From assembly GCA_027484145.1 (NCBI GenBank), contig JAIXUH010000025.1, positions 1 through 64,000 on the forward strand: DNA of 64,000 nucleotides, read 5' to 3'. This document shows positions 504 to 19,415 of this stretch, in pieces; the first letter of the stretch is position 1, and each line of letters opens with the position of its first letter. This stretch comes from Rhodobacter sp. Its GTDB lineage: Bacteria > Pseudomonadota > Alphaproteobacteria > Rhodobacterales > Rhodobacteraceae. Made by a program: the position numbers and the translations under genes. The notes beneath the pieces were generated by a model. That model did no database searches and had not been told where the DNA came from. It saw only the letters and a list, made by a program, of their open reading frames with translations.

Positions 504-1565
504 TCATTTCAGACCAAGCGCCGCTTTCACATCTGCAAACGAAATGTATTTGAAGTTCGTCTGCAGGTCCTCATTCTGGTCATCCATCATGACCAGCATA
601 CCTTCGGGGTAATCCGGCCCAAGCGGAGTGGACACCACATCCAGACCATCGGTTTCAGACACGCCGTCAATCCCCGGGCCTGGCGCGATTTCGACGAGGC
701 CGGCACAAGCCGGCACCTCTTCCCCGTTCAGCGGGAAGATCGCGGCGCGGTGAATCCCTTGGGACGAGGCAACGAGATACCGCGCCCCGGCCCCTTCATA
801 GATTGCCAGCCCTTCGACATCATCCTTGGGAAAGCAATCAGATGGGATTGCAGCAATCTGAACGGCCTCATCGCCATTTTCCGGCAGCAAGGGGAAGCGC
901 CAGATGCCCACATCTTCCTCGCCCACATAGATATGACCCATCGTATCATCAGACACGATGCCTTCGGGCTGGGTGCCCACCTTGATCATGCGGGTGAATT
1001 CCAGCTTGATCTGGCCATTGTCGTCCAGCACTTCATACTGCACGATATGGCCGGTCTTGTAGTTGGTCAGTGTCCAGACCCGGCCCGTCGCATGATCACG
1101 CGCCATGGCATGGCCATAGATATTGCGCACTCGCTCGGTCGTTTCGGGCATGGCCGGAAAAGCATGCGGCGAGGCGCGATCCATTTTGCCATCGGCCTCG
1201 ATCACATAAAACACGATGTCTTCGTTATCGCGTTCGGTGGCCGATGCCAGCCAGACTGTGCGTCCCGCCAAAGTGAATTCGCGCAGGTCGACGTTGTTGA
1301 CCGATCCGTCATTGAAATAGGCCACGTCTTCACCTTGCAGGTTGAAGACGTGCATCCCGTTGTACTTGTCTGTGCCCAGCACAAGGCTGGCCGCAGGATC
1401 GATCGGATGAACCCAGATCGCCGGGTCATCGGCATCACCGATGATGGAGCTTGTTTCGGCAACCGCCGTGACCTGAACCTCTTTCACCTGCGCATGCAGC
1501 GCAGGTGAAACGCCCAGAACCGCCGCAAGACCAAGGCCCGCAGCCAGAAGGTGCTTAGTCTTCAA
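504..1565 (-). CDS. Secreted beta-propeller phytase (3-phytase family)
   Basis: A 353-residue protein with an N-terminal signal peptide (hydrophobic run to about residue 25, ending ALHAQ). Family features are DDPAIWVHP near residue 45, the NNVDLRE segment, the PEGIVSDD...IYVGEED motif in the middle, DDVEGLAIY, and ETDGLDV near the C-terminus. These acidic motifs bind Ca2+ and phosphate in beta-propeller phytases, which remove phosphate from myo-inositol hexakisphosphate outside the cytoplasm. Length fits the family. The start overlaps the upstream gene's end by 11 bp, so the two are cotranscribed leftward from the region near 2210. Divergent from a phosphate-ester-like ABC operon, which supports a role in organic phosphate use. 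Confidence 0.9.
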   Translation of the reverse strand: MKTKHLLAAGLGLAAVLGVSPALHAQVKEVQVTAVAETSSIIGDADDPAIWVHPIDPAASLVLGTDKYNGMHVFNLQGEDVAYFNDGSVNNVDLREFTLAGRTVWLASATERDNEDIVFYVIEADGKMDRASPHAFPAMPETTERVRNIYGHAMARDHATGRVWTLTNYKTGHIVQYEVLDDNGQIKLEFTRMIKVGTQPEGIVSDDTMGHIYVGEEDVGIWRFPLLPENGDEAVQIAAIPSDCFPKDDVEGLAIYEGAGARYLVASSQGIHRAAIFPLNGEEVPACAGLVEIAPGPGIDGVSETDGLDVVSTPLGPDYPEGMLVMMDDQNEDLQTNFKYISFADVKAALGLK

Positions 1566-2208
1566 CTTCGAACTCCGTCACAGGCAGGGTGAAGGAGATG
1601 GCATAAGCGCTGTCGCCCTTGGCCGCCGTGATAAAGGCGCCGATCATGCCATCACCATTGGGAGCTGCCGCCTGAAATGCGGTATCCATATGCAAGGTGG
1701 CGGTCCCGGCATAGTCGGGGCTTTCGGCATCGACGGTCACGCCGCCCGCTTCCCACTTGTATTCGAACTCGGTGAAAACCTTGTCGCCTTCGGGGTATTC
1801 CTCGGCCGATTGCAGGGTAAACGTCGCAGGCAAAGCGGCAAGCTTGTTGAAATCAGCATGAGTCAGCTTGCCCTCGATGGCTTTTGCGATGCCCTCGTGA
1901 ACGAACTCGATCGCGAAATCCATTTCCTGATAGGGGTTATAGTCGGTGTCGTTCAGCAGATACTCACGCTTGAGCGTGATGGCGCTGATATCGGCCGAGG
2001 TGATATCCATCACCTGAACGTCGAACAATTTGCCATCGACCGTCCCCATGATCACCAAATGCGGCTTGTCGCCCAGCCATTCGGTTGGGGCAGCAGTCAG
2101 GGTGTTGCCGGGGGTGACGGTCTGCATCATCGGGTCGGCCAGAACGACGGTGGGCATAGCAATCTGTGGGGCAAGAAGTGCCACCAGCATGGGCGCTGAC
2201 AAACGCAT
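1555..2208 (-). CDS. Secreted protein of unknown function
   Basis: A 217-residue protein whose first ~25 residues (MRLSAPMLVALLAPQIAMPT, then VVLA) form a signal peptide. The rest is acidic and beta-rich with no family I can name. It is the first gene of the leftward two-gene unit with the phytase and overlaps it by 11 bp, so a helper role in phytate use or phosphate starvation is inferred from context only. No membrane segment other than the signal. Start chosen at the only ATG before the signal peptide. Confidence 0.75.
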   Translation of the reverse strand: MRLSAPMLVALLAPQIAMPTVVLADPMMQTVTPGNTLTAAPTEWLGDKPHLVIMGTVDGKLFDVQVMDITSADISAITLKREYLLNDTDYNPYQEMDFAIEFVHEGIAKAIEGKLTHADFNKLAALPATFTLQSAEEYPEGDKVFTEFEYKWEAGGVTVDAESPDYAGTATLHMDTAFQAAAPNGDGMIGAFITAAKGDSAYAISFTLPVTEFEVED

Positions 2209-2479
2209 GAAGGCATCCTTTCAGGTCGGTTCGGTTGTTGACCCACCCAGAGCTAGAAGCGGCGTGTAACGGTTTTGCGTCAGGATTCCGCCCCCTGCGC
2301 CGCCGAAAGTGGAACAGCTTTGTCTTTCATGGGCTTAGGTGCAAGAAAAATTTCTTCTAGCCGTATAGCTTATGTTTTTAAACGATACTTTGAATGCACG
2401 TATGTGCAAATTTCACAGATCTGTCACAGAATCGAACTAGGTTGTAGATCGTGCGCAAAGGGGATTTGATGTCGGATCA
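2209..2479. promoter_or_regulatory. Divergent promoter region with Pho-box-like repeat
   Basis: This 271-bp gap separates the leftward phytase unit and the rightward transporter operon. At 2410-2427 it holds ATTTCAC-agat-CTGTCAC: two 7-bp half-sites separated by 4 bp, the layout of the PhoB box (CTGTCAT-N4-CTGTCAT). The half-sites match consensus at 5/7 and 6/7 positions if the last base is allowed as T or C. No third half-site was found. Control by PhoB would fit the gene content but is not proven. Confidence 0.45.
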
Positions 2480-4294
2480 GTGCAAGATCAGTGCCTTGGT
2501 GCAAGCTTGATCCGGCTAGTCCGCGCCAGGGGCTTTGGGTTGCGCATGGCGCATGACCCTGTGCTGGCGCTTGGCCTTGCCTTGCTGGTCGTCTTCCTGT
2601 GGTTGATCGCGCTGCCGATCGGCATGATCGTCGAAGACAGCTTCACCTCGCAACCCGGCGACAGCGCGCGCACGGGCGTCGCGGATGGCGCGATAACGGG
2701 CTACTACATGTCCCGGGCGCTGGCCTCTCGCATGTCAACGATCCTGTTCTACGCGCCGTTGTGGAACACGCTTCTGGTGGCGGTATGTGCTTCAGCCCTT
2801 GCGCTGGTTATCGGGGCGTTGCTGGCATGGGTACTTGTGCGCAGCGACGTGCCGTTGCGCGGGTGGTTCGCGGTGGCGCTGATCGTGCCGTACATGCTGC
2901 CGGTCTGGACCTTTGCGCTGGCCTGGGTCACCTTGTTCAAGAATTCCACACTGGGTGGTCAGCCTGGATGGGCGCAGGCGCTTGGAGCGCAACCGCCTGA
3001 CTGGCTGGCCTATGGCGCGGTTCCGACCATCGCGATCCTGACGCTGCACTATATTCCCTTTGCCATCCTGATCATCGGCGGCGCCTTGCGGCGGCTGGAT
3101 GGCCAGTTGGAAGAGGCGGCACAGATTCTGGGCGCGCGCCGTCAGATCATCCTTTGGCGCATCGTGATCCCCGCCTTGCGCCCTGCCGTGTTGTCCGCCG
3201 GCCTCTTGATGTTCGCCGATGCGATTGGCGAGTTTTCGGTGCCCTACATCCTTGGCCTTCCGGTCAAGTTCGAAACCCTGTCGGTGTCTTTGTTCCGCGC
3301 GATCAGCACGCAGCAGAATGGAATGGCGGCTGTCTATGCCGGGGCTGTGCTGCTGATCGGGGTGATCACGTTGGGCATTGACGCTTGGATGCTGCGCGAG
3401 GCGCGGCGGTTTACCACCGTCGGCGGTAAGGGCACCATCACCCGCACAAGCCCCCTGCATGCCGCGCGCTGGCCGGTTTTTGGCGGGATCATGCTGCTGT
3501 TTGTGGTCAGCGTGGTCGTGCCGCTGGTCACGCTGCTGCTGTCGACCCTGATGCATATTCCCGGCCGTTTTGATGCGGGGAACTTTACGCTGGATTACTG
3601 GATCGGGCGCGATTTGCCCACGGTTGCTTTGCCGAACGGAATCCTGTTCTCGTCCGAATTCTGGGCTGCGGCGTGGAACTCCGTGCGCATTGCTGGCATG
3701 GCCGCAGTGGCGGCAGCGGCCTTGGGTTTGCTGGTGGGATATGTCGTGGCGCACAGTTCTTGGCGCTGGCTGGCCAATGCCTTGCACGCGATCACCTTTT
3801 TCCCCTACCTTGTGCCGGGGATCGCCTTTGCTGCGGCCATCCTTGTGCTGTTCGCGGCACCACGCGGCCCGATCCCTGCGCTTTACGGCACGCCTTACAT
3901 TCTGCTTCTGGCACTGATTGCCGATCAGATGCCCTTTGCCAGCCGCGTCGGGATCTCGGCCATGGCGCAACTTGGCCCGGATATCGAGGATGCCGCCCGT
4001 ATCATGGGCGCAGGGATGATGCGCCGCTTGCGCGTCATTATCCTGCCTCTCATGAAGGGGGCGCTGGCAACGGCGGTCCTGTTGTCGTTCATTTCCGGCA
4101 TCAAGGGCGTCAGCCTTTTCATCCTGCTGGCCGTGCCATCAACCGATGTGCTGACAACCTTTTCGCTGCGCCTTGTGGACTATGGCTATGCGCAGGCCGC
4201 CAATGCCGTCGTGCTGGTCATCGCCTTGATCGCCCTGATCGGCAGCCTTGTCATGCATCGCGTGGCAGGCCCGGGGCTTGCCGCGGGGCTGTAG
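2480..4294 (+). CDS. Fused two-domain ABC permease (iron / sugar-phosphate type)
   Basis: A 604-residue inner-membrane protein with two tandem permease halves, each of about six membrane segments. Each half has the cytoplasmic EAA loop that docks the ATPase: EEAAQILGAR near residue 211 and EDAARIMGAG near residue 502. This FbpB/ThiP-like double-permease layout belongs to importers of ferric iron, thiamine and, in the AfuB branch, sugar phosphates. The GTG at 2480 is the longest start; the ATG at 2546 (MAHDP) is an alternative. It is followed after 6 bp by the ATPase gene. Context of phytase and phosphatases favours a phosphorylated organic solute over iron. Confidence 0.85.
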   Translation: MQDQCLGASLIRLVRARGFGLRMAHDPVLALGLALLVVFLWLIALPIGMIVEDSFTSQPGDSARTGVADGAITGYYMSRALASRMSTILFYAPLWNTLLVAVCASALALVIGALLAWVLVRSDVPLRGWFAVALIVPYMLPVWTFALAWVTLFKNSTLGGQPGWAQALGAQPPDWLAYGAVPTIAILTLHYIPFAILIIGGALRRLDGQLEEAAQILGARRQIILWRIVIPALRPAVLSAGLLMFADAIGEFSVPYILGLPVKFETLSVSLFRAISTQQNGMAAVYAGAVLLIGVITLGIDAWMLREARRFTTVGGKGTITRTSPLHAARWPVFGGIMLLFVVSVVVPLVTLLLSTLMHIPGRFDAGNFTLDYWIGRDLPTVALPNGILFSSEFWAAAWNSVRIAGMAAVAAAALGLLVGYVVAHSSWRWLANALHAITFFPYLVPGIAFAAAILVLFAAPRGPIPALYGTPYILLLALIADQMPFASRVGISAMAQLGPDIEDAARIMGAGMMRRLRVIILPLMKGALATAVLLSFISGIKGVSLFILLAVPSTDVLTTFSLRLVDYGYAQAANAVVLVIALIALIGSLVMHRVAGPGLAAGL

Positions 4295-4300
4295 CGCTAG

Positions 4301-5392
4301 ATGCCCGATATCGTGATCGAAAACCTGACCAAGACTTTTGGCAAAGGCCATGCCGTCAAGGATGTTTCGCTGACCATCCGGGATGGTTCATTCACCTGCA
4401 TCCTCGGCCCGTCAGGCTGCGGCAAGACCACGCTGTTGCGGATGATCGCGGGGCTTGAGAGGACAAGTGCCGGAAGGATCGGCATCGGGGCACGTGTTGT
4501 GGATGATGCGGCCCAAGGCACCTTTGTGCCCCCCGAACAGCGCGGCGTGGGGCTGGTGTTCCAGTCCTATGCGCTCTGGCCGCACATGACCGTTGCACAG
4601 AATGTGGCTTTCGGATTGCGCCTGCAGCGGGCAAATGCGACCGCCCGCCGCGCCCGCACCGATGCCATGCTGGACACCCTGCGCATCACCGATCTGGCCG
4701 ACCGTTATCCCGCACAGCTTTCTGGCGGCCAGCAACAGCGTGTGGCCCTTGCGCGCACCCTCGCGTTGGCACCGCAGGTTTTGTTGCTGGACGAGCCGCT
4801 GTCGAACCTTGACGCGGCCCTGCGCCTTGCCATGCGGGCCGAGCTTGCCCGCCTGCACCGCGAGTTTGGCACCACCATCGTCTTTGTCACCCATGATCAG
4901 TGGGAGGCGATGACCCTTGCCACCGATATCGCCGTTCTGGCCAAAGGCGAGGTGCAGCAAACCGGCAGCGCAAGTGCGATCTACGACCAGCCCGCCAGCC
5001 GCTTTGTGGCCGAGTTCATCGGCAACCCACCGATCAACATCTTCGCGGCGGGCAGCGATGCGGCACGGGCACTGATCCCTGCTGGGGTCGCCGACCCTGC
5101 CCGCGTGACCGTCGGCCTGCGGCCCGAAGCGATGCAGCTTTCCACCGTCAACAATGGCCAGTCGTTGGCGGCAACGGTGACAGCGCTTATTCCCACGGGC
5201 GGGTCATGGGTTGTGGAAATGGCGCTGCAGCGGGGCGGGACACCCGTTTTGCACACCACCCTTCAGCGCCCTGCCCTTGCCCCGATGCAACCCGTTTTCA
5301 TCACCCCTCAGAAGGAAGGCACGCATTTCTTTGCCCCTGACGGCCGCTGCCTGCCCGATCTTTCCCTGAGATCAAAGGAAACCTCCAGATGA
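4301..5392 (+). CDS. ABC transporter ATPase, Fe3+/sugar-phosphate importer type
   Basis: A 363-residue ATPase. Walker A GPSGCGKTT lies near residue 36, a Q-loop at VFQSYALWPH, the signature LSGGQQQR near residue 140, Walker B VLLLDEP near residue 163, and the switch His in FVTHDQ. The C-terminal ~120 residues are a TOBE-like regulatory part, as in PotA/FbpC/AfuC proteins. It would power the fused permease encoded just upstream. The stop codon overlaps the ATG of the binding-protein gene (ATGA), so translation is probably coupled. Confidence 0.9.
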   Translation: MPDIVIENLTKTFGKGHAVKDVSLTIRDGSFTCILGPSGCGKTTLLRMIAGLERTSAGRIGIGARVVDDAAQGTFVPPEQRGVGLVFQSYALWPHMTVAQNVAFGLRLQRANATARRARTDAMLDTLRITDLADRYPAQLSGGQQQRVALARTLALAPQVLLLDEPLSNLDAALRLAMRAELARLHREFGTTIVFVTHDQWEAMTLATDIAVLAKGEVQQTGSASAIYDQPASRFVAEFIGNPPINIFAAGSDAARALIPAGVADPARVTVGLRPEAMQLSTVNNGQSLAATVTALIPTGGSWVVEMALQRGGTPVLHTTLQRPALAPMQPVFITPQKEGTHFFAPDGRCLPDLSLRSKETSR

Positions 5393-6489
5393 CACACCTG
5401 CCTGCATTTTTGTTGCTTTCGACTGCCCTAGCCTGCCCTGCGCTGGCTGAAACCTTTGACGAAGCCACCCTTCTGGCCGCGGCGAAGGGCGAGCCCCCCT
5501 TGATGGTCATCGATTCCACCGGAAAAGTGCGCGAACAGGTTGCGGGCTTCAAAGCGAAGTATGGGCTTGAGGCCAATGGCACCAAGTCCGAAGCCCCCGG
5601 CACCATCCGCATGGTCATGGGCGAGGCTCAGGCCGGCAATGTGCAGGCCGATGTTTTGGTGATATCGGACACGCCCGCCGCCGTGGCCCAGCTTCTGACC
5701 CCCGGCCTTGCGGTCAGCTATCTGCCCTCGGATATGGTCGATGCCATCCCAGAGGGCGCGCGCGACCCTTTGGTCATCTCGAACTCCCCTGTCGTCTGGA
5801 CCTATAACACCGCCCTGCATGAAAGCTGCCCGGTCAGCAACATCTGGGCGCTGACCGATCCGGACTGGTCGGGGCGCGTGGCAATGCCCGATCCGTTGGG
5901 CAAGCCTGCCTATACCGACTGGTTCAACCAGTTTGCCGCGCATCATGACACGGCCTTTGCCGAGGCCTATGCCGCCCATTACGGCAAGCCTCTGGAAACC
6001 GATCTGAACAGCGCGGCCGAGGCGTGGGTCACGGCCCTTGCCGCCAATCAGCCGTTGCTGGTTGAATCCGACAGCGACTCGGCCGAGGCGGTGGGCGCCC
6101 CCGATGCCACCGAAAGCTTTATCGGCATCATGTCGACGGCCAAGTTCCGTGACAATGACGACGGAATGAAGCTGGGCATCTGCGCCAGTATGCAGCCATT
6201 TGTCGGCCTGATGACGCCGAAGTTCGCCCTGATCACAACAGCATCTGACAGCCCGAATGCCGCGCGGCTTTTCGTCCATTACCTTTTGACCCAAGAAGGC
6301 TGGGCCCCGCAGGCGATCGACGGGAAGATGGCGACCAACACCACCCATGCCCCGGTCGCCAATGAACCTTCGGGTGTGGCAGGGGTGATGGACCAGATGT
6401 GGTTCTATGACACCACAACATCGACAGATGACTGGAACACCCGGCAGGACTGGCAAGATATCTGGTCGCTTGCGCGCGACAGCCAATAG
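5389..6489 (+). CDS. Periplasmic binding protein, family 1 (AfuA/iron-binding-like)
   Basis: A 366-residue protein with a signal peptide cleaved after about residue 19 (ALACPALAE). The body is a family-1 extracellular solute-binding fold: an early APGTIRMVMGEAQ segment, VVWTYNTALH, the hinge region DPDWSGRVAMPDP, and a late ALITTASDSPNAARLFVHYL. This is the ferric/AfuA-like group, whose members bind either iron or phosphorylated sugars. The Tyr pairs typical of iron ligands are not obvious to me. Together with the fused permease and ATPase it forms a complete importer. Substrate is inferred, not shown. Confidence 0.85.
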   Translation: MTHLPAFLLLSTALACPALAETFDEATLLAAAKGEPPLMVIDSTGKVREQVAGFKAKYGLEANGTKSEAPGTIRMVMGEAQAGNVQADVLVISDTPAAVAQLLTPGLAVSYLPSDMVDAIPEGARDPLVISNSPVVWTYNTALHESCPVSNIWALTDPDWSGRVAMPDPLGKPAYTDWFNQFAAHHDTAFAEAYAAHYGKPLETDLNSAAEAWVTALAANQPLLVESDSDSAEAVGAPDATESFIGIMSTAKFRDNDDGMKLGICASMQPFVGLMTPKFALITTASDSPNAARLFVHYLLTQEGWAPQAIDGKMATNTTHAPVANEPSGVAGVMDQMWFYDTTTSTDDWNTRQDWQDIWSLARDSQ

Positions 6490-6546
6490 ATTCACCTTTA
6501 TGCCGCCATGGCTCTGGCCGCCGGCGGCACTGCTTTTGGGTAACGG

Positions 6547-7371
6547 ATGAAAATGCCCCTTGACCTTACCTCTCGCGCCGAATTCCTGCGCGGCCTTGCC
6601 CCTAAGGCAGGAGAGCTTGCACGTGCAGGCTTTAGTGCCCGTACAGCAGGCACCTTTACGCTTAAGGGTCCGCAGGATTTTTTAACGGAAACCGATCTTG
6701 CGGTGGAAACGTTCATTCGGGATCGGATTGGCGAAGCCTTTCCCGAAGACGGCATTCTAGGTGAAGAAGGGGGCGGCGATGCAACCCCGCATCTGTGGAT
6801 CATCGATCCGGTCGATGGCACGGCCAATTTCGCCCGCGGGGTCCCGCATTTTTGCGTTTGCATCTGCTTTTGTGAAGACGGTGCCCCCGTGCTGGGGGCG
6901 ATTTTCCATCCCATGACAGGCGAGTTCTGGTTTGCGCAAAGTGGAAAGGGCGCGCAAAAGAACGGCGCGCCCATCACGGTGACTGCCACCAGAAGCCCTG
7001 ACACGGCCTGCGTGGAAATGGGGTGGTCCCGTCGCCATGCCATTCAGGGCTATCTAGCTGCCCAAGGGCATATCCTGAACGGGGGCGCCAATATCCGTCG
7101 CGGCGGATCGGGCGCCTTGGCCTTGGCATGGGTGGCCGAGGGGCGGTCGGACGGTTACCTTGAGGCGGCGATGAACTGCTGGGATTGTCTTGCCGGTATG
7201 CTGATGGTGCAAGAGGCAGGCGGGTCCGTGCTTCCCTTCGGTGCACCAACAGATGATCGCCTCGCTGCATTGCAGGCCCTGTCTGAACCTCACCCGGTGC
7301 GCGCCTCGACACCGGCGCTGGCCGCACTTCTGGACGGTGCTCTGTCTTTTGCGGCAGAACCTAGCCCATGA
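6547..7371 (+). CDS. Inositol monophosphatase-family phosphatase
   Basis: A 274-residue Mg2+/Li+-type phosphatase. The metal ligands are all visible: GEEGGG near residue 72, the signature WIIDPVDGTANF near residues 84-95, and the C-terminal WDCLAG near residue 212. Family members hydrolyse myo-inositol phosphates, histidinol phosphate, fructose 1,6-bisphosphate or 3'-phosphoadenosine 5'-phosphate. No signal peptide, so it acts in the cytoplasm, after import. The gene starts 57 bp after the binding-protein gene and overlaps the next gene by 4 bp (ATGA). In this operon dephosphorylation of an imported inositol or sugar phosphate is the simplest reading. Confidence 0.85.
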   Translation: MKMPLDLTSRAEFLRGLAPKAGELARAGFSARTAGTFTLKGPQDFLTETDLAVETFIRDRIGEAFPEDGILGEEGGGDATPHLWIIDPVDGTANFARGVPHFCVCICFCEDGAPVLGAIFHPMTGEFWFAQSGKGAQKNGAPITVTATRSPDTACVEMGWSRRHAIQGYLAAQGHILNGGANIRRGGSGALALAWVAEGRSDGYLEAAMNCWDCLAGMLMVQEAGGSVLPFGAPTDDRLAALQALSEPHPVRASTPALAALLDGALSFAAEPSP

Positions 7372-8018
7372 GCGCAAACGATCCCAATCCCCTGCGCGAC
7401 TTGTTTGCTGCCGCAGATGCCCGCCGTGGCCCGATTCATCTGATTGACCGCGATTTCGACGGGGTTGACCTCTACGTCGGCAACCGTCAGGCAGCATCGG
7501 ACCCTGCCCTTTTGGCGCAGCACGGCATCAAGGCTGTTTTGAACTGCGCTTTGAACCTGGACGTGAACCTTGTCGCGACACCTGCGCCCGACAGCCGCAA
7601 TCAGGATTTCGGACGCGGCCCGATCCGGTATTACAAGCTGGGGCTGATCGACGGGCCGGGCAATCCGGCCGAAATGCTTCTGGCGGGATATTTGCAACTG
7701 CGCGGGCTGATGCGCCAGCAGATGCCTGACACGGCCAGCTATCCATGGCCCGGCAGCGGGCATGTTCTGGTGAATTGCCGTGGCGGGCGCAGCCGTTCGG
7801 TCATTCTGGTCAGCCTGTTCCTGCATTTGGAACGCCCCGAACGTTTTCCCACCCTTGCCGCCGCGATTGACCATGTCCGACAGATGCGTCAACTGGAGCC
7901 GATAGAGTGGCCAAGTGCACCCAAACCCGTTCTGATCGAAGCGGCCCTTTGGGCTGCACAGGTTGCTGAAAGCATTCGCGCACTTCACATGGCAAGACCA
8001 GAGGCAGACAGATCATGA
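7368..8018 (+). CDS. Dual-specificity / tyrosine phosphatase-like protein
   Basis: A 216-residue cytoplasmic protein with a Cys-phosphatase fold: VYLGN-like segment DLYVGNRQAAS, GIKAVLNCAL, then the P-loop VLVNCRGGRSRSV with Cys137 and Arg143 in the correct C-X5-R spacing. The residue before the catalytic Cys, normally His, is Asn136. There is no strong general-acid Asp loop that I can identify with confidence, though LGLIDGPGN is in the expected place. Cysteine phosphatases of this superfamily include phytate-degrading enzymes, so an inositol phosphate substrate is possible. It overlaps both neighbours by 4 bp. Confidence 0.75.
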   Translation: MSANDPNPLRDLFAAADARRGPIHLIDRDFDGVDLYVGNRQAASDPALLAQHGIKAVLNCALNLDVNLVATPAPDSRNQDFGRGPIRYYKLGLIDGPGNPAEMLLAGYLQLRGLMRQQMPDTASYPWPGSGHVLVNCRGGRSRSVILVSLFLHLERPERFPTLAAAIDHVRQMRQLEPIEWPSAPKPVLIEAALWAAQVAESIRALHMARPEADRS

Positions 8019-9094
8019 AGGCCAGCCCCCCCTTCGCCGATGGACAAGCAGCCTCTGCCGCCGATGTTGCACGGCGGGCCGGGGTGTCTCGGTCTGCCGT
8101 ATCACGTACCTTTACTGATGGGGCCTCGGTTTCACCCGAAACCCGCAAAAAGGTGCTGCGCGCGGCGGAAGAACTGCACTACCACGTCAATTTTCTGGCT
8201 CGTAGCCTGTCCAAAGAGGAAAGCCGCCCCGTCTGCGTTCTGGTGTCGAACCTGCACAAACCCTATCACGCGCAACTGCTGGATCACCTGACGACCGCAC
8301 TGCAAAGGGTCCAGCGGATTAGCATCATCATCAATGTCGGCGACGATCCCGCCGCTGCAGAACGCGCATTGGAACAAACGCTGAATTACCGCGCCGCTGC
8401 CACGCTTGTGTTGTCGGGTGCGCCGCCTGCGCCGATGGTCAGCCGCTGTGTTGAAGTTGGGCAGCGCGTGATCCTGATCAACCGCGCTGACGATCTGCCA
8501 GATGTGCAGCACATAAGAATTGACTATGAAACGGCGATGCAAACGGCCGTCCAGATGTTCCTCCGGGCGGGATGCCGCCGCATCGCCCTCGTCTCGCGGG
8601 CTTCACGCACGCCCAGTCTGCAGGCCCGTGAAGACCACTTCAGCCGCTTCCTGCAAGCTGAAGGGATCGAGCCGCTGGTCTGGCGCGGGCAATCGACCAC
8701 CTACCAGACAGGCCAGCAAGCGATGCGAGAATTGCTGGTGGGCCTTGATCCTCCAGATGGCGTGTTCTGCATCAATGATCTGATGGCTTGCGGCTGTATC
8801 GATGTGGCGCGTCACGATTTCGGGCTGCGCCTGCCGGACGATCTGTGCATTCTGGGCTTTGATGACATCGCACAAGCGGCTTGGGCAGGCTACGATCTGA
8901 CAACATTCGCCCAGCCCTACGCCGAGATTGCCCAGAGGGCGGTGGATATCTTGACCCATCCAGAGGCGACGTCAGACCAGCGCTTGATGTTGATGGCCCG
9001 GCCGATTTGGCGCAGAACAATGCGGGTTGGAAACGCCAAGTCAACAGATCGGCAAGGAGCACGGATCTGGGACACTGGCCCAAAAGACGATTGA
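8015..9094 (+). CDS. LacI-family transcriptional regulator (end of phosphate-ester operon)
   Basis: A 359-residue regulator. The N-terminal helix-turn-helix and hinge helix cover about residues 14-70 (SAADVARRAGVSRSAVSRTF, then SPETRKKVLRAA), followed by a periplasmic-binding-protein-like ligand domain (VCVLVSNL, GVFCINDLMACG, ILGFDDIAQA). It is translationally coupled to the phosphatase gene and ends the operon, so it likely senses the transported or dephosphorylated compound. No clear palindromic operator for it was found in 2209-2479. Confidence 0.85.
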   Translation: MKASPPFADGQAASAADVARRAGVSRSAVSRTFTDGASVSPETRKKVLRAAEELHYHVNFLARSLSKEESRPVCVLVSNLHKPYHAQLLDHLTTALQRVQRISIIINVGDDPAAAERALEQTLNYRAAATLVLSGAPPAPMVSRCVEVGQRVILINRADDLPDVQHIRIDYETAMQTAVQMFLRAGCRRIALVSRASRTPSLQAREDHFSRFLQAEGIEPLVWRGQSTTYQTGQQAMRELLVGLDPPDGVFCINDLMACGCIDVARHDFGLRLPDDLCILGFDDIAQAAWAGYDLTTFAQPYAEIAQRAVDILTHPEATSDQRLMLMARPIWRRTMRVGNAKSTDRQGARIWDTGPKDD

Positions 9095-9145: not shown

Positions 9146-10684
9146 CTATGGATGGCCGCTGCGGCGTAGTACGCGATCTTCGGTAATCTGGGCAATCCGG
9201 TAAAAGGCGACCGAAAGCAGGACGCTGACCACGGCCACGGTCCAGATCATGCTGAAGTCCATATAGCCGCGCGACTGGTTCATCAGGTTGCCCAAGCCGC
9301 GCCCGGTGGCCAGCCATTCGGCGATCATCACGCCCAGAAGGGCACGCGGAACCGTGGTGCGGATGGCTGCAAACACCCAAGGCAAAGACGCAGGGATGGC
9401 GACCAGCCGCAACTCTCGCCATACCGTGGCACCGTAAGCCCTTGGCAATTCCAGCACGGAGCGCGGCACCTGCGACAGGCCTTGCGTGATCATGACATAG
9501 GCCGGAAAGAAGGTGACAGAGATGGTGATCCACAGCGTCACCGCCGACCCCCGGCCAAGGATCAGCACCAGCAGCGGTGTCAATGCGACCAGCGGCATGG
9601 TTTGTGTGACCAGCGCCACGGGCAGAAATGCCCGCGTGAAAGACGGCGCAAGTTGCGATGTGACCGCCAAGCCAAATGCGAAAGCAAGACCCGCCACAAG
9701 CCCCAGTGCCGTGATTGGCAGGGTCTCGCCCAAGGCCAGCAACAGCTTGCCCTGCGCTGCGGCTGAACCCTCGGACAGGAACAGATAGGCAAAGACGTCG
9801 ACGGGGGTCTTCCCGATCATGCCCGGGACGTTCAGCGCCAGCAACAAGCCCCACCAAAGCGCGAAGGGCAACAGGAACGACACCACCCCGATCCAGACCC
9901 CGCCCCCGGCGGCAGGTGCAGGAGGGGCTGCGGGGTTCAGCGTCACGGAACGCGACGCCCCAAGCATCCGCGCCGACAGCGCCGCAAACAGGGCATAGGA
10001 CAGCCCGGCAATCAGTGTGGCCGTAAGGCCGATGCCCCATAGCCGGTCAGGCTCGCCCCGCCCCAGCGATCCCAGTAGATAGGCGCCAAGCCCCCAACGC
10101 CCGCCGCCGCCGAATTCGGCCAGAATGGCCCCGAGAACGGCATTCGGGGCCGCCACACGAAAGCCCGACAGGATGGCAGGAATGGCGCCCCGGATCTGCA
10201 CGAACCGCATCACCGCACGGCCCCCACCACCATAGGCGCGCACCAGATCAGCGGCGCGGCTGTCATACTGTGAAAGGCCGGTCACCGTGGCCTGCATGGT
10301 CACGAAATACACGCCCAAGGCCGCCAGTACGATGCGGGGTGTCATCCCCTCCAGCGTCAGCGCAAGGATCGGGGCGATGGCGATAGGCGGCAGGGCAAAG
10401 ATCGCGATGTTCAACCCACGCGCCATCCGCGCCGTGACGGGCAGCAGCACGAACAAGACCCCTGCCAGCACCGCAATGATATTGCCGATCACAAACCCCG
10501 CGCTTGATGCTTGCAGCGTGGCTAGCACATGGCGGGGGTAATCCGCCCGGTCCACCCAGAACCGCGCGATGATTTCCGACAGCGCAGGCAGCGCTCCGAC
10601 TGCCACAAGGTCCAGCCGCCCCACGACCTCCCACAGGATCAGCAGCGCCAGATAGGGCGCGATGGACCGTACCCTAAACGCCAT
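9146..10684 (-). CDS. Fused double ABC permease (SsuC/TauC/ThiX-like)
   Basis: A 512-residue inner-membrane protein made of two tandem SsuC-type permease halves, joined near residue 260 by an Ala/Pro-rich linker (NPAAPPAPAAGGG). Each half has the pattern of the nitrate/sulfonate/pyrimidine importer family, with EAA-like loops (ADLVRAYGGGGRAVMRFV and ELPRAYGATVWRELRLV). Most relatives are single-domain and form homodimers, so the fusion is notable. Start chosen at ATG 10684, which overlaps the ATPase stop by 11 bp; a longer open frame to 10852 would only read antisense-looking Pro/Cys-rich sequence inside the ATPase gene. It faces the LacI gene convergently. Confidence 0.85.
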   Translation of the reverse strand: MAFRVRSIAPYLALLILWEVVGRLDLVAVGALPALSEIIARFWVDRADYPRHVLATLQASSAGFVIGNIIAVLAGVLFVLLPVTARMARGLNIAIFALPPIAIAPILALTLEGMTPRIVLAALGVYFVTMQATVTGLSQYDSRAADLVRAYGGGGRAVMRFVQIRGAIPAILSGFRVAAPNAVLGAILAEFGGGGRWGLGAYLLGSLGRGEPDRLWGIGLTATLIAGLSYALFAALSARMLGASRSVTLNPAAPPAPAAGGGVWIGVVSFLLPFALWWGLLLALNVPGMIGKTPVDVFAYLFLSEGSAAAQGKLLLALGETLPITALGLVAGLAFAFGLAVTSQLAPSFTRAFLPVALVTQTMPLVALTPLLVLILGRGSAVTLWITISVTFFPAYVMITQGLSQVPRSVLELPRAYGATVWRELRLVAIPASLPWVFAAIRTTVPRALLGVMIAEWLATGRGLGNLMNQSRGYMDFSMIWTVAVVSVLLSVAFYRIAQITEDRVLRRSGHP

Positions 10685-11444
10685 GCAAAACCCCGGCGAT
10701 ATGGTCGCAGAGGTGGTGAAATTCGGGGGCCGCGAACAGCGATGGCAGCCGTGGACGGGCAAAGGGGCTGTCCAGCACCTCGACGATCCGGCCAGGCCCG
10801 GCCTGCATGATGGCAATCCGGTCGGCCAGAAACACCGCTTCATCAATGCCATGCGTCACCAGCAGCGTGGTCACCCCGGTTTCCAGCCAGATCCGCTGTA
10901 ATTCGACATTCATCTGACGGCGCAGGATCTGGTCCAGCGCACCAAAGGGTTCGTCCAGAAAAAGCACACGGGGTTCACTGACCAATGCCCGCGCAATGGC
11001 CACGCGTTGCCGCATGCCGCCCGACAATTCGCCGGGCAAGGCATCCTCGCGTCCTTTCAGGCCCACAAGTGCGATCAGGTCACGGATGCGCCCCTGCGCG
11101 GGGCCAAGACTGCGGCCCAGAACCTCCAGCGGCAGGGCAACGTTCTGCGCCACCGTCCGCCACGGCAGCAGCGCCGAGTCCTGAAACGCCACCCCGGTGA
11201 TGCCGGCACGCGTAGCAATCGCGGGCGCTTGCCCACCGATCAGCACGCTGCCCGCATCCAGCGGCTCCAGCCCCAGCGCGGCACGCAGGATCGTGGATTT
11301 GCCGCACCCTGACGGCCCGATAAGTGCCGTGAAACTGCCCGGCGGACAGTTCAGAGAAACATCCCGCAGGGCCTCTACCGACCCGCCCTGACCCGCAAAG
11401 GTCTTGCAAAGGCCGGTCAGCGTAATCCCTGCGGGTGCTGTCAT
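10674..11444 (-). CDS. ABC transporter ATPase (SsuB/TauB/ThiZ-like)
   Basis: A 256-residue ATPase with Walker A GPSGCGKST near residue 43, Q-loop FQDSALLPW, signature LSGGMRQR, Walker B VLFLDEP and switch region LVTHGIDEA. Length and motifs match the nitrate/sulfonate/taurine/pyrimidine branch. The ATG overlaps the stop of the binding-protein gene by one base (TGATG), and the downstream permease gene starts inside its last 11 bp, so the three transporter parts are coupled. Confidence 0.9.
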   Translation of the reverse strand: MTAPAGITLTGLCKTFAGQGGSVEALRDVSLNCPPGSFTALIGPSGCGKSTILRAALGLEPLDAGSVLIGGQAPAIATRAGITGVAFQDSALLPWRTVAQNVALPLEVLGRSLGPAQGRIRDLIALVGLKGREDALPGELSGGMRQRVAIARALVSEPRVLFLDEPFGALDQILRRQMNVELQRIWLETGVTTLLVTHGIDEAVFLADRIAIMQAGPGRIVEVLDSPFARPRLPSLFAAPEFHHLCDHIAGVLHGV

Positions 11445-12415
11445 CAGATTTCCTCAAGCAGCGTGGTGTCGAACATTTCGCGTGTGGCGGTGATACCCAC
11501 CTTGGACAGCGCCTCGATATTGGCGGCGATGCCCTCTTCGGTCATCGCAAATACTCCGGCCGGGTTGGCGATCAGTGGCAGTTGCGCGGTGTTGAAGAAC
11601 ACTTCGTTGTCGATGGTCCGGCCGGTTCCGGCGAAATGTGTCGTTTCCCATTTCGGCGGCCACAGGGTGGTGTCGACGTTGTTCTCATCCCAGCCTTTGC
11701 GCGACGCGCGCAGCCAGGCGACCAGTTCTTTGCGTTTGGCAGCCAAGGTTTCTTCGGTCACGACGACCGTGTCGTTGTAGATCGTATAGCCGAAATCATA
11801 GAGCAGGAACGACACCGCCTCTTCGCCCATGGTCTTGATCGTGTAGGGCACGTTGGTGGTGAAATCGAGGCTGGCGTCGATCTCGCCCTTGATCAGCGGG
11901 GTCGGGTCATAGGCATAGGGCACGATGTTGACCGAAGCCTTGTCGATCCCGTTCATCGCCAGCAAGGCCTCGACGCTGATCGTGTTGACCGGCGGCACGG
12001 CGATGGTTTTGCCCACCATGTCGGCTGGTGTCAGGATCGGGTTCTTGGCAAGGCTGACGATGCCAATCGGGTTCTTCTGATATTGCGCGCCGATGATCTT
12101 GAACTTGGCCCCCTGATCGACAATGGCCTTGATCGTGGTGTCGGGAGTCGTCAGCGCAAGATCGGCACGCCCGGCCACAATGGTGGCTTCGGGAATGACA
12201 TCCGGCCCGCCCGGCAGATAGGTCAGGTCAAGCCCTTCGGCCGTGTAATAGCCCTGATCCATCGCAAGGAAATAGCCCGCGAATTCAGCATCGTTGATCC
12301 AGGCCGCCTGCATGGCAAAGGGTGTGGCCGCATGGGCCATGCGGGGCATCAGGGGCAGCGTTGCGGCAGCAGCGCTGGCTGTCAGAAAAGAACGACGGTT
12401 CAGGGCAATCTTCAT
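11444..12415 (-). CDS. NMT1/THI5-like substrate-binding protein, Tat-exported
   Basis: A 323-residue periplasmic binding protein. It begins with a twin-arginine signal (NRRSFLTA, cleavage near residue 29, MAHAA). The mature part resembles the THI5/NMT1-like fold: WINDAEFAGYFLAMDQGYY, YLPGGPDVIPE, GRADLALTTPD, and IVSLAKNPILTPADMVGKT. Relatives bind pyrimidine precursors of thiamine, riboflavin, sulfonates or other aromatics. Start set at ATG 12415, directly before the Tat motif; an upstream in-frame extension is Pro/Arg-rich and is rejected. The substrate is unknown. Confidence 0.85.
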   Translation of the reverse strand: MKIALNRRSFLTASAAAATLPLMPRMAHAATPFAMQAAWINDAEFAGYFLAMDQGYYTAEGLDLTYLPGGPDVIPEATIVAGRADLALTTPDTTIKAIVDQGAKFKIIGAQYQKNPIGIVSLAKNPILTPADMVGKTIAVPPVNTISVEALLAMNGIDKASVNIVPYAYDPTPLIKGEIDASLDFTTNVPYTIKTMGEEAVSFLLYDFGYTIYNDTVVVTEETLAAKRKELVAWLRASRKGWDENNVDTTLWPPKWETTHFAGTGRTIDNEVFFNTAQLPLIANPAGVFAMTEEGIAANIEALSKVGITATREMFDTTLLEEI

Positions 12416-12459
12416 GTCATGGATCCTTTGGTTTGAGAGCGGAGGCGAACGGGCGCGGG

Positions 12460-13197
12460 TCAGGCAATCCCCTGTATGCGTTGCAATTCCTGCAATGGCG
12501 GGGTGTCGGCGATCTGTTTGGGTTCCAGCAGGTTCCACTTTACCCCGCGCGGGCGTTTCGCGCGGCGGGCAACATGGTGCATTCGGGTCGGCGTGGCGAT
12601 GTGGTCGACAAGGATGTCGGTTTCCGACGGTGTCAGATTTTCCTCGACGATCTGGCAATCATGGACAACGGCCACCACAGGCGTTTTCTCATCCGCAAGG
12701 CCAAGGTCGGTGAACATGCCCCATTCAAGGTCAAAGAACCCATGCCCCTTGCCGAACCGCACCCCATCGACCGAAACTGCCGAGGCGCCCGTCACCATGA
12801 AGTCAAAACTGCCTCGGCTGGCAATTTCGGCCAGACTGATCGGGCGGGCGAAATGCTCCATCCCGTCCAGCCAAGCGGCGTAAAGTTCGGCACCCTGCGG
12901 CACCATCCCCGGCTCCATCAGCAGAAAGCCGCGATAGATGCCGTAGGTCGACATGACAAAGGCCTTTCCATCGGCAATCATCTGCCGCCGCAGGTCGACA
13001 AGGCAGTTATCGGGTGTGATGAAAGCGAAGGTGCTGGAGGTATACTCCGGCATCGCCACCACCTTGGCTGTGGCCACCTCTGACCCTTGGAAATCGGGAA
13101 TGACTTCGGAAAAATTCAGGTGAAACCGCGTGTCGGGTTTCGCCACATCATACAGCCGCCCCCAAATCTGCTGGCGTATGATCTTGGATTTCGACAT
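12460..13197 (-). CDS. 5-formyltetrahydrofolate cyclo-ligase-family protein
   Basis: A 245-residue protein. It starts KSKIIRQQIWGRLYDV, and has the family's IPDFQGSE, RRQMIADGKAFVMSTYGI, a Gly/Asp/Phe-rich nucleotide loop (RFGKGHGFFDLEWG) and VVHDCQIVEE near the C-terminus. True cyclo-ligases convert 5-formyl-THF to 5,10-methenyl-THF with ATP and are about 180-200 residues, so this is a longer paralogue and its substrate may differ. First gene of the leftward transporter operon, 44 bp before the binding-protein gene. Start taken at 13197; an in-frame start 4 codons earlier exists. Confidence 0.75.
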   Translation of the reverse strand: MSKSKIIRQQIWGRLYDVAKPDTRFHLNFSEVIPDFQGSEVATAKVVAMPEYTSSTFAFITPDNCLVDLRRQMIADGKAFVMSTYGIYRGFLLMEPGMVPQGAELYAAWLDGMEHFARPISLAEIASRGSFDFMVTGASAVSVDGVRFGKGHGFFDLEWGMFTDLGLADEKTPVVAVVHDCQIVEENLTPSETDILVDHIATPTRMHHVARRAKRPRGVKWNLLEPKQIADTPPLQELQRIQGIA

Positions 13198-13213
13198 GCT
13201 CGGCCCCAACGTC

Positions 13214-13285: not shown

Positions 13286-14134
13286 ATGGCAACACGCCTA
13301 ACCCTGAGACTTCAGGAAAGAATTTCTCGGCTCACCAAGGCCGAGCAAAAACTTGCGACACTGTTGCTTGAGAATCAGGCATTGATCGAAACCCATTCCG
13401 CGACCGAACTTTCAATTCTCGCGGGGGTGTCTAAGGCCACGACAGCGCGGTTCTTCCGCAACCTTGGCTATACAGATTTCGACGAAGCCCGCAGCCAGGC
13501 CCGCGAAGAACGCAACCGCACCCAGCCTTACGCCTATTCACAGGCGCAGCCCGAAAAGCCGGTGCTTGGCCGGTCGATCGGTGAGCATCTGGATCTGGAA
13601 CTCCTGAACCTGACCCGCACGTTCGAGGAGATGCGCCCCGATCTTTTGACCGAGGCTGCGCGACTGATTCAGGATGCGCCCCGCGTCTGGTGCATGGGCT
13701 TTGGTGCCGAAGAGGGTCTGGCGCAATTGGCGCGCCTGACCTTTGCCCGGTTGCGCCCAGACGTACACATTCTGGCCGCCCATCCCGGTGCCTGGGCCGA
13801 GGATCTGTCAATGACGGGCCCACGCGACGTCTTGATCCTGCTGACTCTGGAGCCGCGGCCAAAATTTCAGGCGGCCCTCACCTCTTATGCCCGGACGACC
13901 CGGATGAACGTGATCACCCTGACGGACCACCGCTTTCTCGCCGCCGCACAACGGTTTTCCCGGATTGTGATCGGCTGTCACGTCGCGACATTCGGGCGGC
14001 TGCCAAGCCATACCACACTGGCCTCGATGATCCGCATGCTGTCCATTGCGTTCATTGGACAAACGGGTGCCGCCGCCGAACAGAGACTGGCCGTGATCGA
14101 CGAAATCAACGAAGAGATTGACCTGTTCGAATAA
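13286..14134 (+). CDS. MurR/RpiR-family transcriptional regulator
   Basis: A 282-residue regulator with an N-terminal RpiR helix-turn-helix (residues ~1-80; LTKAEQKLATLLLENQ, ATELSILAGVSKATTARFFR) and a C-terminal SIS phosphosugar-binding domain (VWCMGFGAEEGLAQLAR, MTGPRDVLILLT, NVITLTDH). It is divergent from the transporter and cyclo-ligase operon, so it probably controls that operon through the repeats at 13214-13249. The SIS domain suggests a phosphorylated or carboxylated small ligand. Confidence 0.88.
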   Translation: MATRLTLRLQERISRLTKAEQKLATLLLENQALIETHSATELSILAGVSKATTARFFRNLGYTDFDEARSQAREERNRTQPYAYSQAQPEKPVLGRSIGEHLDLELLNLTRTFEEMRPDLLTEAARLIQDAPRVWCMGFGAEEGLAQLARLTFARLRPDVHILAAHPGAWAEDLSMTGPRDVLILLTLEPRPKFQAALTSYARTTRMNVITLTDHRFLAAAQRFSRIVIGCHVATFGRLPSHTTLASMIRMLSIAFIGQTGAAAEQRLAVIDEINEEIDLFE

Positions 14135-14294
14135 GGGGCAAGACGATCCGAACCTGATCTTCGTTTGCTTTTCAGTAGTGGAACGCTGTCCTTGCTGCCC
14201 TTCCGAAATGTGAACGCTCTATTGCGCTTCTGGGATCATGGTGTGGGGTAGGCACCATTTCAAACAGCTTTCGCCAAAGGCTGGAGGTTGAAAC

Positions 14295-14713
14295 TCAAGC
14301 CGGTTGGCCGGTCCGAGACACCCTGCCCCTTGGTTCTTCCTTGGTGGTGGCAACAACCAGACCCCGTTTCGTGCCCAACGCACCCGACATAGCCCCACGG
14401 GCGCTATGAGCCAGCCACCCCGTTGCGGCAGCAATCTCCGGAATCGTGGCTCCTTCGGCGCGCCGCAACATGGCGATCGGCAGCGCCTGCTTTGTTTGCG
14501 TCCACAGCGTAGGGTGTTTCATGTTTGCCTGAGCGGTTCATTAGGACGCAGATTGGCATCAAACGCTTGCAGCCAGCCGTGTTCGATCATCTTGGTGATG
14601 GCCATTTTCTCGGCCGTTCCGGCCAGCGCCTTGGGTGGCGGCAGGGCAATCGTGTCAGCGCGCTGTGACCCGGCGCTTAGCAGGATGGTCTGGGTTTCGG
14701 AAGGTTTCGCAAT
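14295..14713 (-). pseudogene. DUF3489-family gene, broken in the middle
   Basis: On the minus strand from 14713 the frame reads ETQTILLSAGSQRADTIALP, then PPPKALAGTAEKMAITKMIE and ANLRPNEPLRQT, which is the usual N-terminal half of DUF3489 proteins, and stops at 14519. From 14522 a second frame reads TKQALPIAMLRRAEGATIPE, then IAAATGWLAHSARGAMSGAL, the DUF3489 C-terminal domain. The linker present in intact relatives is missing. The expected ATG at 14713 is ATT. These three lesions point to a dead gene of mobile or accessory origin. Confidence 0.65.
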
Positions 14714-14722
14714 GGCGTTCCC

Positions 14723-14950
14723 CTATTTGTCTTGGGTGGCAACGAAGGCGTTGGTCCGCGACAGCAGGTCGTGGTGACCTTTGGCATAGGTGAGGATCAT
14801 CAGGTCACCGTCTTCGTCGCGCTCCATATCCGCGACCTCGCGCAGCAGCGCGATAGCCCTGTCGCAGGCGGAGAGACGTTCGGCCTCTCATGCTGCGGTG
14901 CTGGCATCCTGTTCGATCTTTTGGCGCTAGCTGGGATCAAGCGGCAAGTG
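14723..14950 (-). pseudogene. Unrecognised coding remnant with internal stops
   Basis: The minus-strand frame ending at the TAG at 14723-14725 reads EAERLSACDRAIALLREVAD, then MERDEDGDLMILTYAKGHHD and LLSRTNAFVATQDK. It looks like real protein sequence (charged amphipathic helices). Upstream in the same frame there is a TGA right before EAERL and a TAG 14 codons upstream of that TGA. It lies 10 bp upstream of the DUF3489 pseudogene and was probably cotranscribed with it. I do not recognise the family. Confidence 0.4.
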
Positions 14951-15524
14951 CGCCATTCTTGACAGCGCTAGTTGTGATCGGGCGTAGGAGGCTGGCGCTA
15001 TGTTTGCAGTGCCGACATCGCCCAGCTGGTCGAGTCTGGGTGGGTTTCGACGTAGTCATCGCTCAGGGACTTCAGCCGCTCCGGTATCGCGTCGCGCTGG
15101 AACCTGGTGGCATTGAAAGCCTACAAGGCGTTGGGGCTGTCGGTCGCGCGGCGGGTGGTTAGGGCGTGGTCTCTGGACGTAAATTGTTTCGTTTTGGCGC
15201 AATCACCGCTGCCCCAGAATGGCGGTTAATATTTTGAAATAATGATATAAATTAGTGCATTATTGGGCCACTATAGATCGGCGTTTCGCAACTGCTCCAC
15301 ATCTGGCATTGCCGATTACCAATCAGCGCAACTGCACTGCAGGCGGGAGTGACGACTGCTGGACAGCAGCACTGGGCGATCATGTTGGCCGAGCGTAACC
15401 GTGCCAAGACGGCAACACTCAAACCTCGGCAACGCAGTGGACATTTCGTCGGCGCGTGCATTAGTCGAGGGGGTGTCGGCTTGAAGGCCGCACGGCAACC
15501 AATCAACAGACGATAGAAGGAACA
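14951..15524. other. Intergenic stretch, no gene recognised
   Basis: No convincing coding frame on either strand. The part around 15215-15270 is clearly more AT-rich than its surroundings and could hold the promoter of the small gene at 15525. The rest is probably decayed coding DNA linked to the two pseudogenes to the left. Confidence 0.35.
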
Positions 15525-15866
15525 ATGCCGATGATAACCCGCTACGCCTTCTTTCAGGGCGATGTGAGCCCTGGAAAGCTGCAGGAATTCAAAACTGCTG
15601 TGATGGAAGAGTTGTTGCCGACCTGGTTGGTTTACCCGGGCGCAACGGCCGTCCGGGTGTCATTTGCCACCGAACGCGACGATCAGGCGCCGAATGTGCC
15701 GCTGATCTTGGCTGTGGATTTCGCGTCACGCGAAGGGCTTGATTTAGCACTGAACAGTCAAGAACGTCTGGACAGCCGTGCGGCCACCCAACGCGTTTTG
15801 CCCGGCTTGTTTACGGGCAACATCTTTCACTATGTGACTGAATCCACAGAACACCAGCCGGACTAA
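15525..15866 (+). CDS. Small protein, possible dimeric alpha/beta-barrel (EthD/Dabb-like)
   Basis: A 113-residue cytoplasmic protein with a purine-rich ribosome binding site (AGAAGGAAC) just before the ATG. It begins with a beta strand and helix typical of the ferredoxin-like dimeric barrel group (ITRYAFFQGDVSPGKLQEFK), and has a later strand-helix unit (AVDFASREGLDLALNSQERL). No catalytic residue can be named. It precedes the regulon that starts at 16077, with the operators in between, but is not clearly part of it. Confidence 0.6.
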   Translation: MPMITRYAFFQGDVSPGKLQEFKTAVMEELLPTWLVYPGATAVRVSFATERDDQAPNVPLILAVDFASREGLDLALNSQERLDSRAATQRVLPGLFTGNIFHYVTESTEHQPD

Positions 15867-15991
15867 GCGGTACTGACGCTGATTCTTGTGACCGGGGCCT
15901 CCCCTCCCCTTGCTCGCGCCTCCGGCAAACCTCATAAAAAATTCATGAATTCAATAGCCTAACCCTCTTCCGCGGCCGTCCCTGCCTGAAG

Positions 15992-16048: not shown

Positions 16049-16076
16049 TAAACGTGCTCAGGGGGAGGACGCAACT

Positions 16077-19413: not shown

Positions 19414-19415
19414 CC

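Follow-up and report, generated by a model that had tools for sequence, protein, structure and literature searches.

Among the reserves of organic phosphorus in soils and sediments phytate is a major one, and the usual view is that bacteria release its phosphate extracellularly and then take up inorganic phosphate (Pi). The locus described here, at positions 504 to 9094 of the window (the whole stretch of 64,000 nucleotides analyzed, from contig JAIXUH010000025.1 of Rhodobacter sp.), combines genes for a beta-propeller phytase, an ATP-binding cassette (ABC) importer, two phosphatases, and a LacI-family regulator. Judged from its sequence and that of its relatives, it is quite probably a phytate and inositol-phosphate acquisition system, with inositol phosphate from phytate as the main substrate.

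The closest described systems were compared through the accessible portions of the papers cited. AfuABC, a hexose- and heptose-phosphate importer, resembles the system here as an ABC importer that depends on a substrate-binding protein (SBP), was labeled an iron transporter, and takes a phosphorylated ring intact (PMC4546632). In AfuA, His205, Asp206, and Glu229 hold the sugar and Ser/Thr residues the phosphate (PMC4546632); set against that published description, the SBP family here has six conserved basic residues. The importer here also differs in coming with an inositol-monophosphatase-family phosphatase (IMPase), a CX5R phosphatase, LacI, and, at some loci, phytase or inositol catabolism (iol) genes; the word phosphatase is absent from the main text on AfuA (PMC4546632). 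The vitamin-B6-phosphate importer P5PAB, an AfuA relative, likewise takes a phosphorylated ring, but it was found only in Pasteurellaceae and has no ATPase gene downstream of p5pAB (PMC8427247), and P5PA matched the SBP here only marginally in profile searches (E = 0.086). Glycerol-phosphate importers of marine Rhodobacterales with GpxB and UgpB also take up phosphate esters, but GpxB belongs to the PhnT family and UgpB to CUT1, and by description neither is the SBP family found here (PMC12718374). The metal-citrate binder MctA (7f6e and mutants) is the nearest solved fold and the best sequence-profile match, yet the SBP here has T250 where MctA has Y221, and G45 in place of D28. The phytase families at the loci studied are those of the Bacillus 3-phytase (3amr) and of the Bacteroides-type MINPP 4fdt. 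No dedicated inositol-phosphate importer beside either phytase was found in the accessible text of the open-licence literature searched. The earlier note on this DNA had proposed that a dedicated bacterial inositol-phosphate importer would be new, and none was found described in the accessible open-licence literature on inositol phosphate or phytate uptake. A Thermotoga regulon study is, in its accessible text, among the nearest prior work; phytase does not occur in the main text of a LacI regulon study (PMC4052901).

The locus is composed of the following features.

504 to 1565, minus strand: beta-propeller phytase (PF02333, E = 1.6e-67; signal peptide by eye).
1555 to 2208, minus strand: hyp217, without Pfam or NCBIfam match (signal peptide by eye).
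2394 to 2409, no strand: operator-like palindrome ATGCAC-GTAT-GTGCAA between both divergent units, 11/12 matches to TTGCAC-N4-GTGCAA.
2410 to 2427, plus strand: PhoB-type box ATTTCAC-AGAT-CTGTCAC, immediately following the palindrome and 70 bp upstream of the start of the permease, score 11.0/13.
2480 to 4294, plus strand: fused ABC permease (two PF00528 stretches; best NCBIfam match PhnU2, 144 bits, cut-off 593).
4301 to 5392, plus strand: ABC ATPase with TOBE_2 domain (PF00005, PF08402).
5389 to 6489, plus strand: periplasmic SBP, predicted inositol-phosphate receptor (PF13531; AlphaFold pLDDT 93.2).
6547 to 7371, plus strand: IMPase (PF00459, E = 1.1e-55; GEE, DPVDGT, and WD motifs in the translation).
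7368 to 8018, plus strand: CX5R phosphatase of dual-specificity type (PF00782, 31.4 bits, below the 33.5 cut-off; VHR-type profile match).
8015 to 9094, plus strand: LacI-family regulator, the last gene of the operon (PF00356, PF13377).

The gene order and coordinates of the earlier note agreed with the open reading frame list and the family searches; the phytase had been placed correctly as divergent, and hyp217 had been overlooked. An 11-bp overlap joins hyp217 to the start of the phytase gene, so that both genes make up the divergent unit, which shares 271 bp (2209 to 2479) with the importer unit. From 2480 to 9094 the genes are separated by a 6-bp gap, a 4-bp overlap, a 57-bp gap, and two 4-bp overlaps, and a single operon from permease to LacI is therefore plausible. 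The source genome comprises 4.97 Mb with the locus on contig C19. The nearest SBP orthologues, 84 to 85% identical, were found in assemblies of Pseudorhodobacter antarcticus. The eight-gene block is not a chance arrangement, because it recurs in identical layout in Donghicola mangrovi (G039, L048).

A profile of nine SBPs retrieved 207 relatives in named genomes, of which the best 80 were retained together with as much as 10 kb of flanking sequence per side, and genes were called by a custom script. After duplicates L028, L029, and L030 (of L048, L102, and L088) and L031, a second, phosphatase-free locus of genome G152, had been dropped, 82 loci were scored; L031 was included in the PhoB-box, SBP-residue, and palindrome counts, and L045, which has no permease in its stretch, was left out of the PhoB-box and palindrome counts. 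The loci belong to Rhodobacterales, Rhizobiales, Marinomonas, Halomonas/Vreelandella, and Enterobacterales, that is, to Alpha- and Gammaproteobacteria, and the core genes were counted in them: permease and ATPase at 81 loci each, IMPase at 77, CX5R phosphatase at 78, and LacI at 77, and all six including the SBP together at 72 of the 82. Lack of linkage to phosphatase and phytase genes in relatives, named in the earlier note as a refuting result, was looked for and not seen, phytases being present at 12 loci. At the seven outgroup loci L033 to L039 (SBP 28 to 33% identical), only SBP, permease, and ATPase matched, and IMPase, CX5R phosphatase, LacI, and phytase were found at none. Five Marinomonas rows stand beside Tritonibacter within a Rhodobacterales clade of the SBP tree, and the locus therefore seems to have moved between lineages; several long branches leave parts of the tree unsure. 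Among 198 genomes of the source's family, an SBP of at least 44% identity occurred in five, which marks the system as accessory.

At the fold level the importer belongs to the FbpA/AfuA-like class, with a type II SBP fold, a two-domain permease, and a TOBE-bearing ATPase. The 2-aminoethylphosphonate importer PhnT2/PhnU2 was tried and rejected on the NCBIfam cut-offs (permease 144 versus 593 bits, ATPase 328 versus 458 bits). The nearest solved structures to the AlphaFold model of the SBP in Foldseek were MctA, then FutA, FbpA, and others. An importer of ferric iron or a metal chelate, with the phytase merely freeing phytate-held iron, would fit these neighbors, MctA being a Mg-citrate binder and FutA and FbpA iron proteins, and a gene for an FbpA-like SBP, read by eye, lies close by beyond lacI at nine loci (L086, 19177 to 20202, and eight others, mostly Aminobacter). 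The metal site argues in the other direction. With MctA numbers in the Protein Data Bank (PDB) taken as two below the chain index, as deduced from the D28A and Y221A entries, MctA S26, D28, and Y221 correspond to S43, G45, and T250 of the SBP. The position of the metal-site Tyr (Y221) holds Thr, Ser, Ala, Val, or Ile in 119/119 close SBPs, so that the Tyr of FbpA/FutA-type iron binding occurs in none of them, and Tyr in 5/5 outgroup SBPs. Six basic residues, K46, K66, K172, K252, R254, and K313, are kept instead in 118 of the 119: K66, R254, and K313 do not vary; positions 46 and 172 each have Lys in 118 SBPs and Arg in one, and position 252 has Lys in 118 and Ile in one. The five outgroup SBPs have R46, D66, R172, D or A252, R254, D313, and Y250. 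Together with the PhoB-type boxes and the constant phosphatase partners described below, this makes iron very unlikely as the substrate, with hardly any probability left to it; the importer almost certainly takes a phosphate ester instead. The doubt of the earlier note about the usual iron-importer label is supported, and the metal-site Tyr of an iron-type pocket, which that note had named as a refuting result, was looked for and not found. The six basic residues would line the SBP cleft and suggest a ligand with several phosphates.

The sole close SBP with Ile at position 252 is that of L031, whose locus is without phosphatase or LacI genes. L031 (G152:C13, 9525 to 13645) is a divergent member of the importer family, and its neighbors were read by eye as a RuBisCO-like protein and a four-carbon-acid sugar kinase. 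At L029, L087, L092, L115, L120, and others, the operon has two or three SBP genes in tandem, about 46 to 55% identical to the Rhodobacter SBP, which suggest receptors for different isomers.

A sugar-phosphate importer of the AfuABC kind, working with a general sugar phosphatase, was weighed on the same searches. With an E value of 1.4e-8, AfuA (4r72) ranked higher among the SBP profile matches than most iron proteins of the FbpA type. Hexose phosphates are what AfuA brings in (PMC4546632), and LacI regulators, in the accessible text of the regulon study, mostly respond to carbohydrates (PMC4052901). MctA is nearer than AfuA by sequence, AfuA was not among the 50 Foldseek fold matches shown, and the linkage to phytase and iol genes speaks for an inositol compound; we consider a hexose or other sugar phosphate decidedly unlikely.

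The IMPase belongs to its family by a wide margin (PF00459, 189.4 versus 27 bits), and no NCBIfam equivalog cut-off was reached, so the family does not reveal its substrate. The CX5R phosphatase fell below the PF00782 cut-off (31.4 versus 33.5 bits), but its profile matched DUSP3/VHR (E = 5.9e-11), and C137, R143, and D95 are invariant in 23 homologues; a scan of viral contigs with it gave no relative. In seven Enterobacterales (L091, L099, L105, L110, L111, L113, and L118) the two enzymes are fused into one protein of 478 to 519 amino acids, an argument for a substrate common to both.

A calcineurin-like metallophosphoesterase was assigned at 29 of the 82 loci (one protein by family scan, the rest by homology), which include all 13 loci with a HAD phosphatase and all 14 with a Na/Pi transporter (two HAD proteins and one Na/Pi protein family-scanned, the remaining assignments by homology). 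This enzyme, together with the lack of a phytase at most loci, would favor a diester such as glycerophosphoinositol or another phosphatidylinositol derivative as the imported substrate, which the metallophosphoesterase of relatives would split and the IMPase would finish. The Rhodobacter locus and 53 of the 82 loci, however, are without the metallophosphoesterase; no glycerophosphodiesterase family was found among the 30 scanned proteins of the loci, a part of the neighbors. The six conserved basic residues suggest several phosphates, and phytases of two unrelated families stand at 12 loci. A diester is therefore unlikely, and inositol phosphate from phytate remains the best-supported candidate substrate.

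An operator-like palindrome, TTGCAC-N4-GTGCAA, was revealed by aligning the intergenic regions of five phytase-bearing loci; an earlier operator search for palindromes with a central CG had found none common to the loci. Score cut-offs for the palindrome and for the PhoB-type box were chosen once initial results had been seen, and shuffled sequences were then scored with the same cut-offs. With at least 11/12 matches, the palindrome precedes the permease at 66/82 loci, compared with 1/1640 dinucleotide shuffles, and at 47/53 loci without and 19/29 with the metallophosphoesterase. It was found in 18/652 upstream regions of other genes at the same loci, several of which share the region of the permease. 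Across 1.72 Mb of loci, 83 sites lie by the permease and 46 elsewhere; 32 of the 46 fall within 400 bp of where our script places the start of the Tritonibacter porin gene or of a gene for LacI, IMPase, CX5R phosphatase, or the Na/Pi transporter, and a further site lies at the Tritonibacter hyp217 start. One site with one mismatch in the Rhodobacter stretch alone is not rare (25/100 shuffles), but the TA-centered form WTGCACNTANGTGCAW occurs once in the 4.97-Mb source genome, at 2394 to 2409 between phytase and importer. Because LacI is the only regulator in the core, it is the likely owner of the palindrome, and 2394 to 2409 is probably a LacI site. The shared palindrome slightly raised our confidence in the reading as a phytate and inositol-phosphate acquisition system.

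PhoB-type boxes were scored as two CTGTCAY halves 11 bp apart, with a threshold of at least 10.5/13. A box precedes the permease at 28/53 loci without the metallophosphoesterase and 1/29 with it (Fisher P = 2.5e-6, with loci taken as independent although many are related); shuffles gave 16/1060 at 10.5 or more and 9/1060 at 11. In a slightly wider stretch, boxes occurred at 33/82 loci compared with 19/652 other upstream regions. Of the plus-strand sites, 21/27 fall 58 to 87 bp upstream of the permease start; four more, at +7 or +8, probably reflect a start called too early.

The locus phytase scored 228.6 bits against the 21-bit PF02333 cut-off and is a beta-propeller family member; 116/321 aligned residues are identical to the Bacillus phytase 3amr, and in that alignment it keeps 10/10 active-site residues of the Bacillus phytase. 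Two unrelated families, beta-propeller phytase at eight loci and MINPP at four, occur at one kind of locus, which is strong evidence on the substrate. Six of the beta-propeller loci lie in the clade around the Rhodobacter locus, a well-supported clade of 14 rows in the SBP tree (6/14), and the others are Devosia sp. Root635, whose phytase is divergent from the permease as in Rhodobacter and only 30% identical, and Wenxinia marina, whose two short PF02333 matches within a 254-amino-acid frame point to a gene that has been shortened internally. The Tritonibacter locus (L047) has a porin gene first, then hyp217 and phytase, and then the importer, with hyp217, phytase, and importer all in one orientation. 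The MINPP genes are confined to one Halomonas/Vreelandella clade; at these four loci a histidine phosphatase follows lacI, with PF00328 in the three scanned, and the best solved-structure matches of the L078 protein, which has RHG and HAE motifs, were MINPP (E = 2.2e-49). A porin gene follows the MINPP gene at L078. Porin_4 genes thus adjoin phytases at L078 (15242 to 16282) and L047 (3875 to 4909), the latter with a perfect palindrome at its start, and an outer-membrane pore may therefore belong to the system.

In the family sample of 198 genomes, PF02333 occurred in six, the close SBP in five, and both in three (P = 1.5e-4, the Rhodobacter genome itself counted), with phytase and SBP on one contig and at most 10 kb apart in all three. 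PF02333 was found in 11 of 33 carrier genomes scanned, at the locus in eight; these genomes were chosen from the 80 named loci and include every locus with a local beta-propeller phytase, so the 8/11 does not come from a random sample. The companion hyp217, a protein of 217 amino acids, belongs to no known family in Pfam and NCBIfam searches and occurs at 7/82 loci, all in the clade around the Rhodobacter locus; its AlphaFold model is poor (pLDDT 47). At L049 the end of hyp217 fails to align, and no phytase is left beside it.

Genes of inositol catabolism adjoin the system at two separate places. In Marinomonas alcarazii (L065), iolG, iolB, a gene for methylmalonate-semialdehyde dehydrogenase (MMSDH, iolA-type), iolE, and iolD, all over cut-off, begin about 0.6 kb beyond lacI on the opposite strand, and in Devosia, iolC and iolD follow the phytase. 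IolD was over cut-off in 36 of 50 carrier genomes, chosen from the 80 named loci, versus 101 of the 198 in the family sample, which represents other lineages and makes the comparison not strict. It lies within 35 kb of a close SBP in 4 of the 36 (P = 0.002, assuming uniform placement); in Paracoccus litorisediminis the nearby SBP is a second copy. The distance is also short in G050 (about 28 kb) and G152 (about 17 kb). In the source genome, IolD is on another contig than the locus. An importer of some other phosphate ester, with phytase and iol genes as incidental neighbors, would account for the presence of each at a minority of loci. It would leave two unrelated phytase families, two separate iol neighborhoods, and one operator-like palindrome common to the phytase unit and the importer without explanation, and we give it only a slim chance. 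The shared palindrome, the PhoB-type boxes, the adjoining iol genes, and the IMPase-CX5R fusion further support the inositol-phosphate substrate put forward in the earlier note.

Several observations weigh against this assignment. No phytase was found at 70/82 loci within the stretch of up to 10 kb per side, no PF02333 phytase in 22/33 carrier genomes (a scan for this family alone), and 3/6 PF02333 genomes of the family sample are without the close SBP; because most loci are without a phytase, its place in the ancestral system is something we infer. No IolD was found in 14/50 carrier genomes, including Donghicola mangrovi with its complete block. Neither a palindrome (7 to 8 of 12) nor a PhoB box (8.5 to 9.5) was found before the MINPP genes. 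Both phosphatase families act on many phosphate esters, the pocket was read from a weak MctA alignment (about 20% identity) and not from coordinates, and the palindrome and PhoB tallies treat related loci as separate cases. The PhoB-type box at 2410 to 2427 scores 11.0, and the aligned spot scores only 8.0, 9.0, 10.0, and 10.0 in L041, L042, L043, and L048, so PhoB control is less sure for the Rhodobacter locus than for the family.

On balance, the genes would act in sequence. The phytase, which has a signal peptide by eye, would strip some phosphates from phytate outside the cytoplasm, and the SBP would capture the lower inositol phosphates in a Lys/Arg-rich cleft, as its conserved residues suggest. 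The permease-ATPase pair would import them whole, and the cytoplasmic CX5R phosphatase and IMPase, given their families, constant linkage, and fusion, would remove the remaining phosphates to yield Pi and myo-inositol. As one palindrome lies between the two units, LacI probably governs both phytase and importer, responding to an inositol compound. Regulation by phosphate shortage probably comes on top of this through PhoB, the box being weak in the nearest kin.

In relatives, the importer seems to have a second mode of use. The loci concerned combine tandem SBPs and a metallophosphoesterase with either a HAD phosphatase or a Na/Pi-type transporter; they are mostly without a PhoB box and probably burn the inositol ring as carbon. 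Their Na/Pi-type transporter could export surplus Pi, as does YjbB, the E. coli member of that family. We regard as evenly balanced the broader proposal that the loci form an undescribed, widespread class of ABC importers for inositol phosphates under one LacI-type operator, working either in PhoB-linked phosphorus scavenging with a single receptor, as in the Rhodobacter locus, or with two to three receptors in tandem, additional phosphatases, and a Na/Pi-type transporter, using phytate-derived inositol as carbon and discarding the phosphate. Each of the tandem receptors may recognize an inositol-phosphate isomer of its own.

Beyond the locus lies another ABC transporter (9146 to 12658, minus strand), which pairs a fused permease with an SBP of NMT1/THI5-like type; next to a 5-FTHF cyclo-ligase-like gene (12460 to 13209), it looks like a pyrimidine or thiamine-precursor importer. 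An RpiR-type regulator, a Gfo/Idh oxidoreductase, a CoA transferase, an aldehyde dehydrogenase, and a sugar-type SBP (13286 to 22243, plus strand) form a separate catabolic cluster.

The substrate question is now reduced to a test on one purified protein. If the proposed function is true, the inositol ring and its remaining phosphates would enter the cell whole, so that the phosphate is not shared with neighbors, and the iron-importer label would be corrected for a family spread over Alpha- and Gammaproteobacteria.

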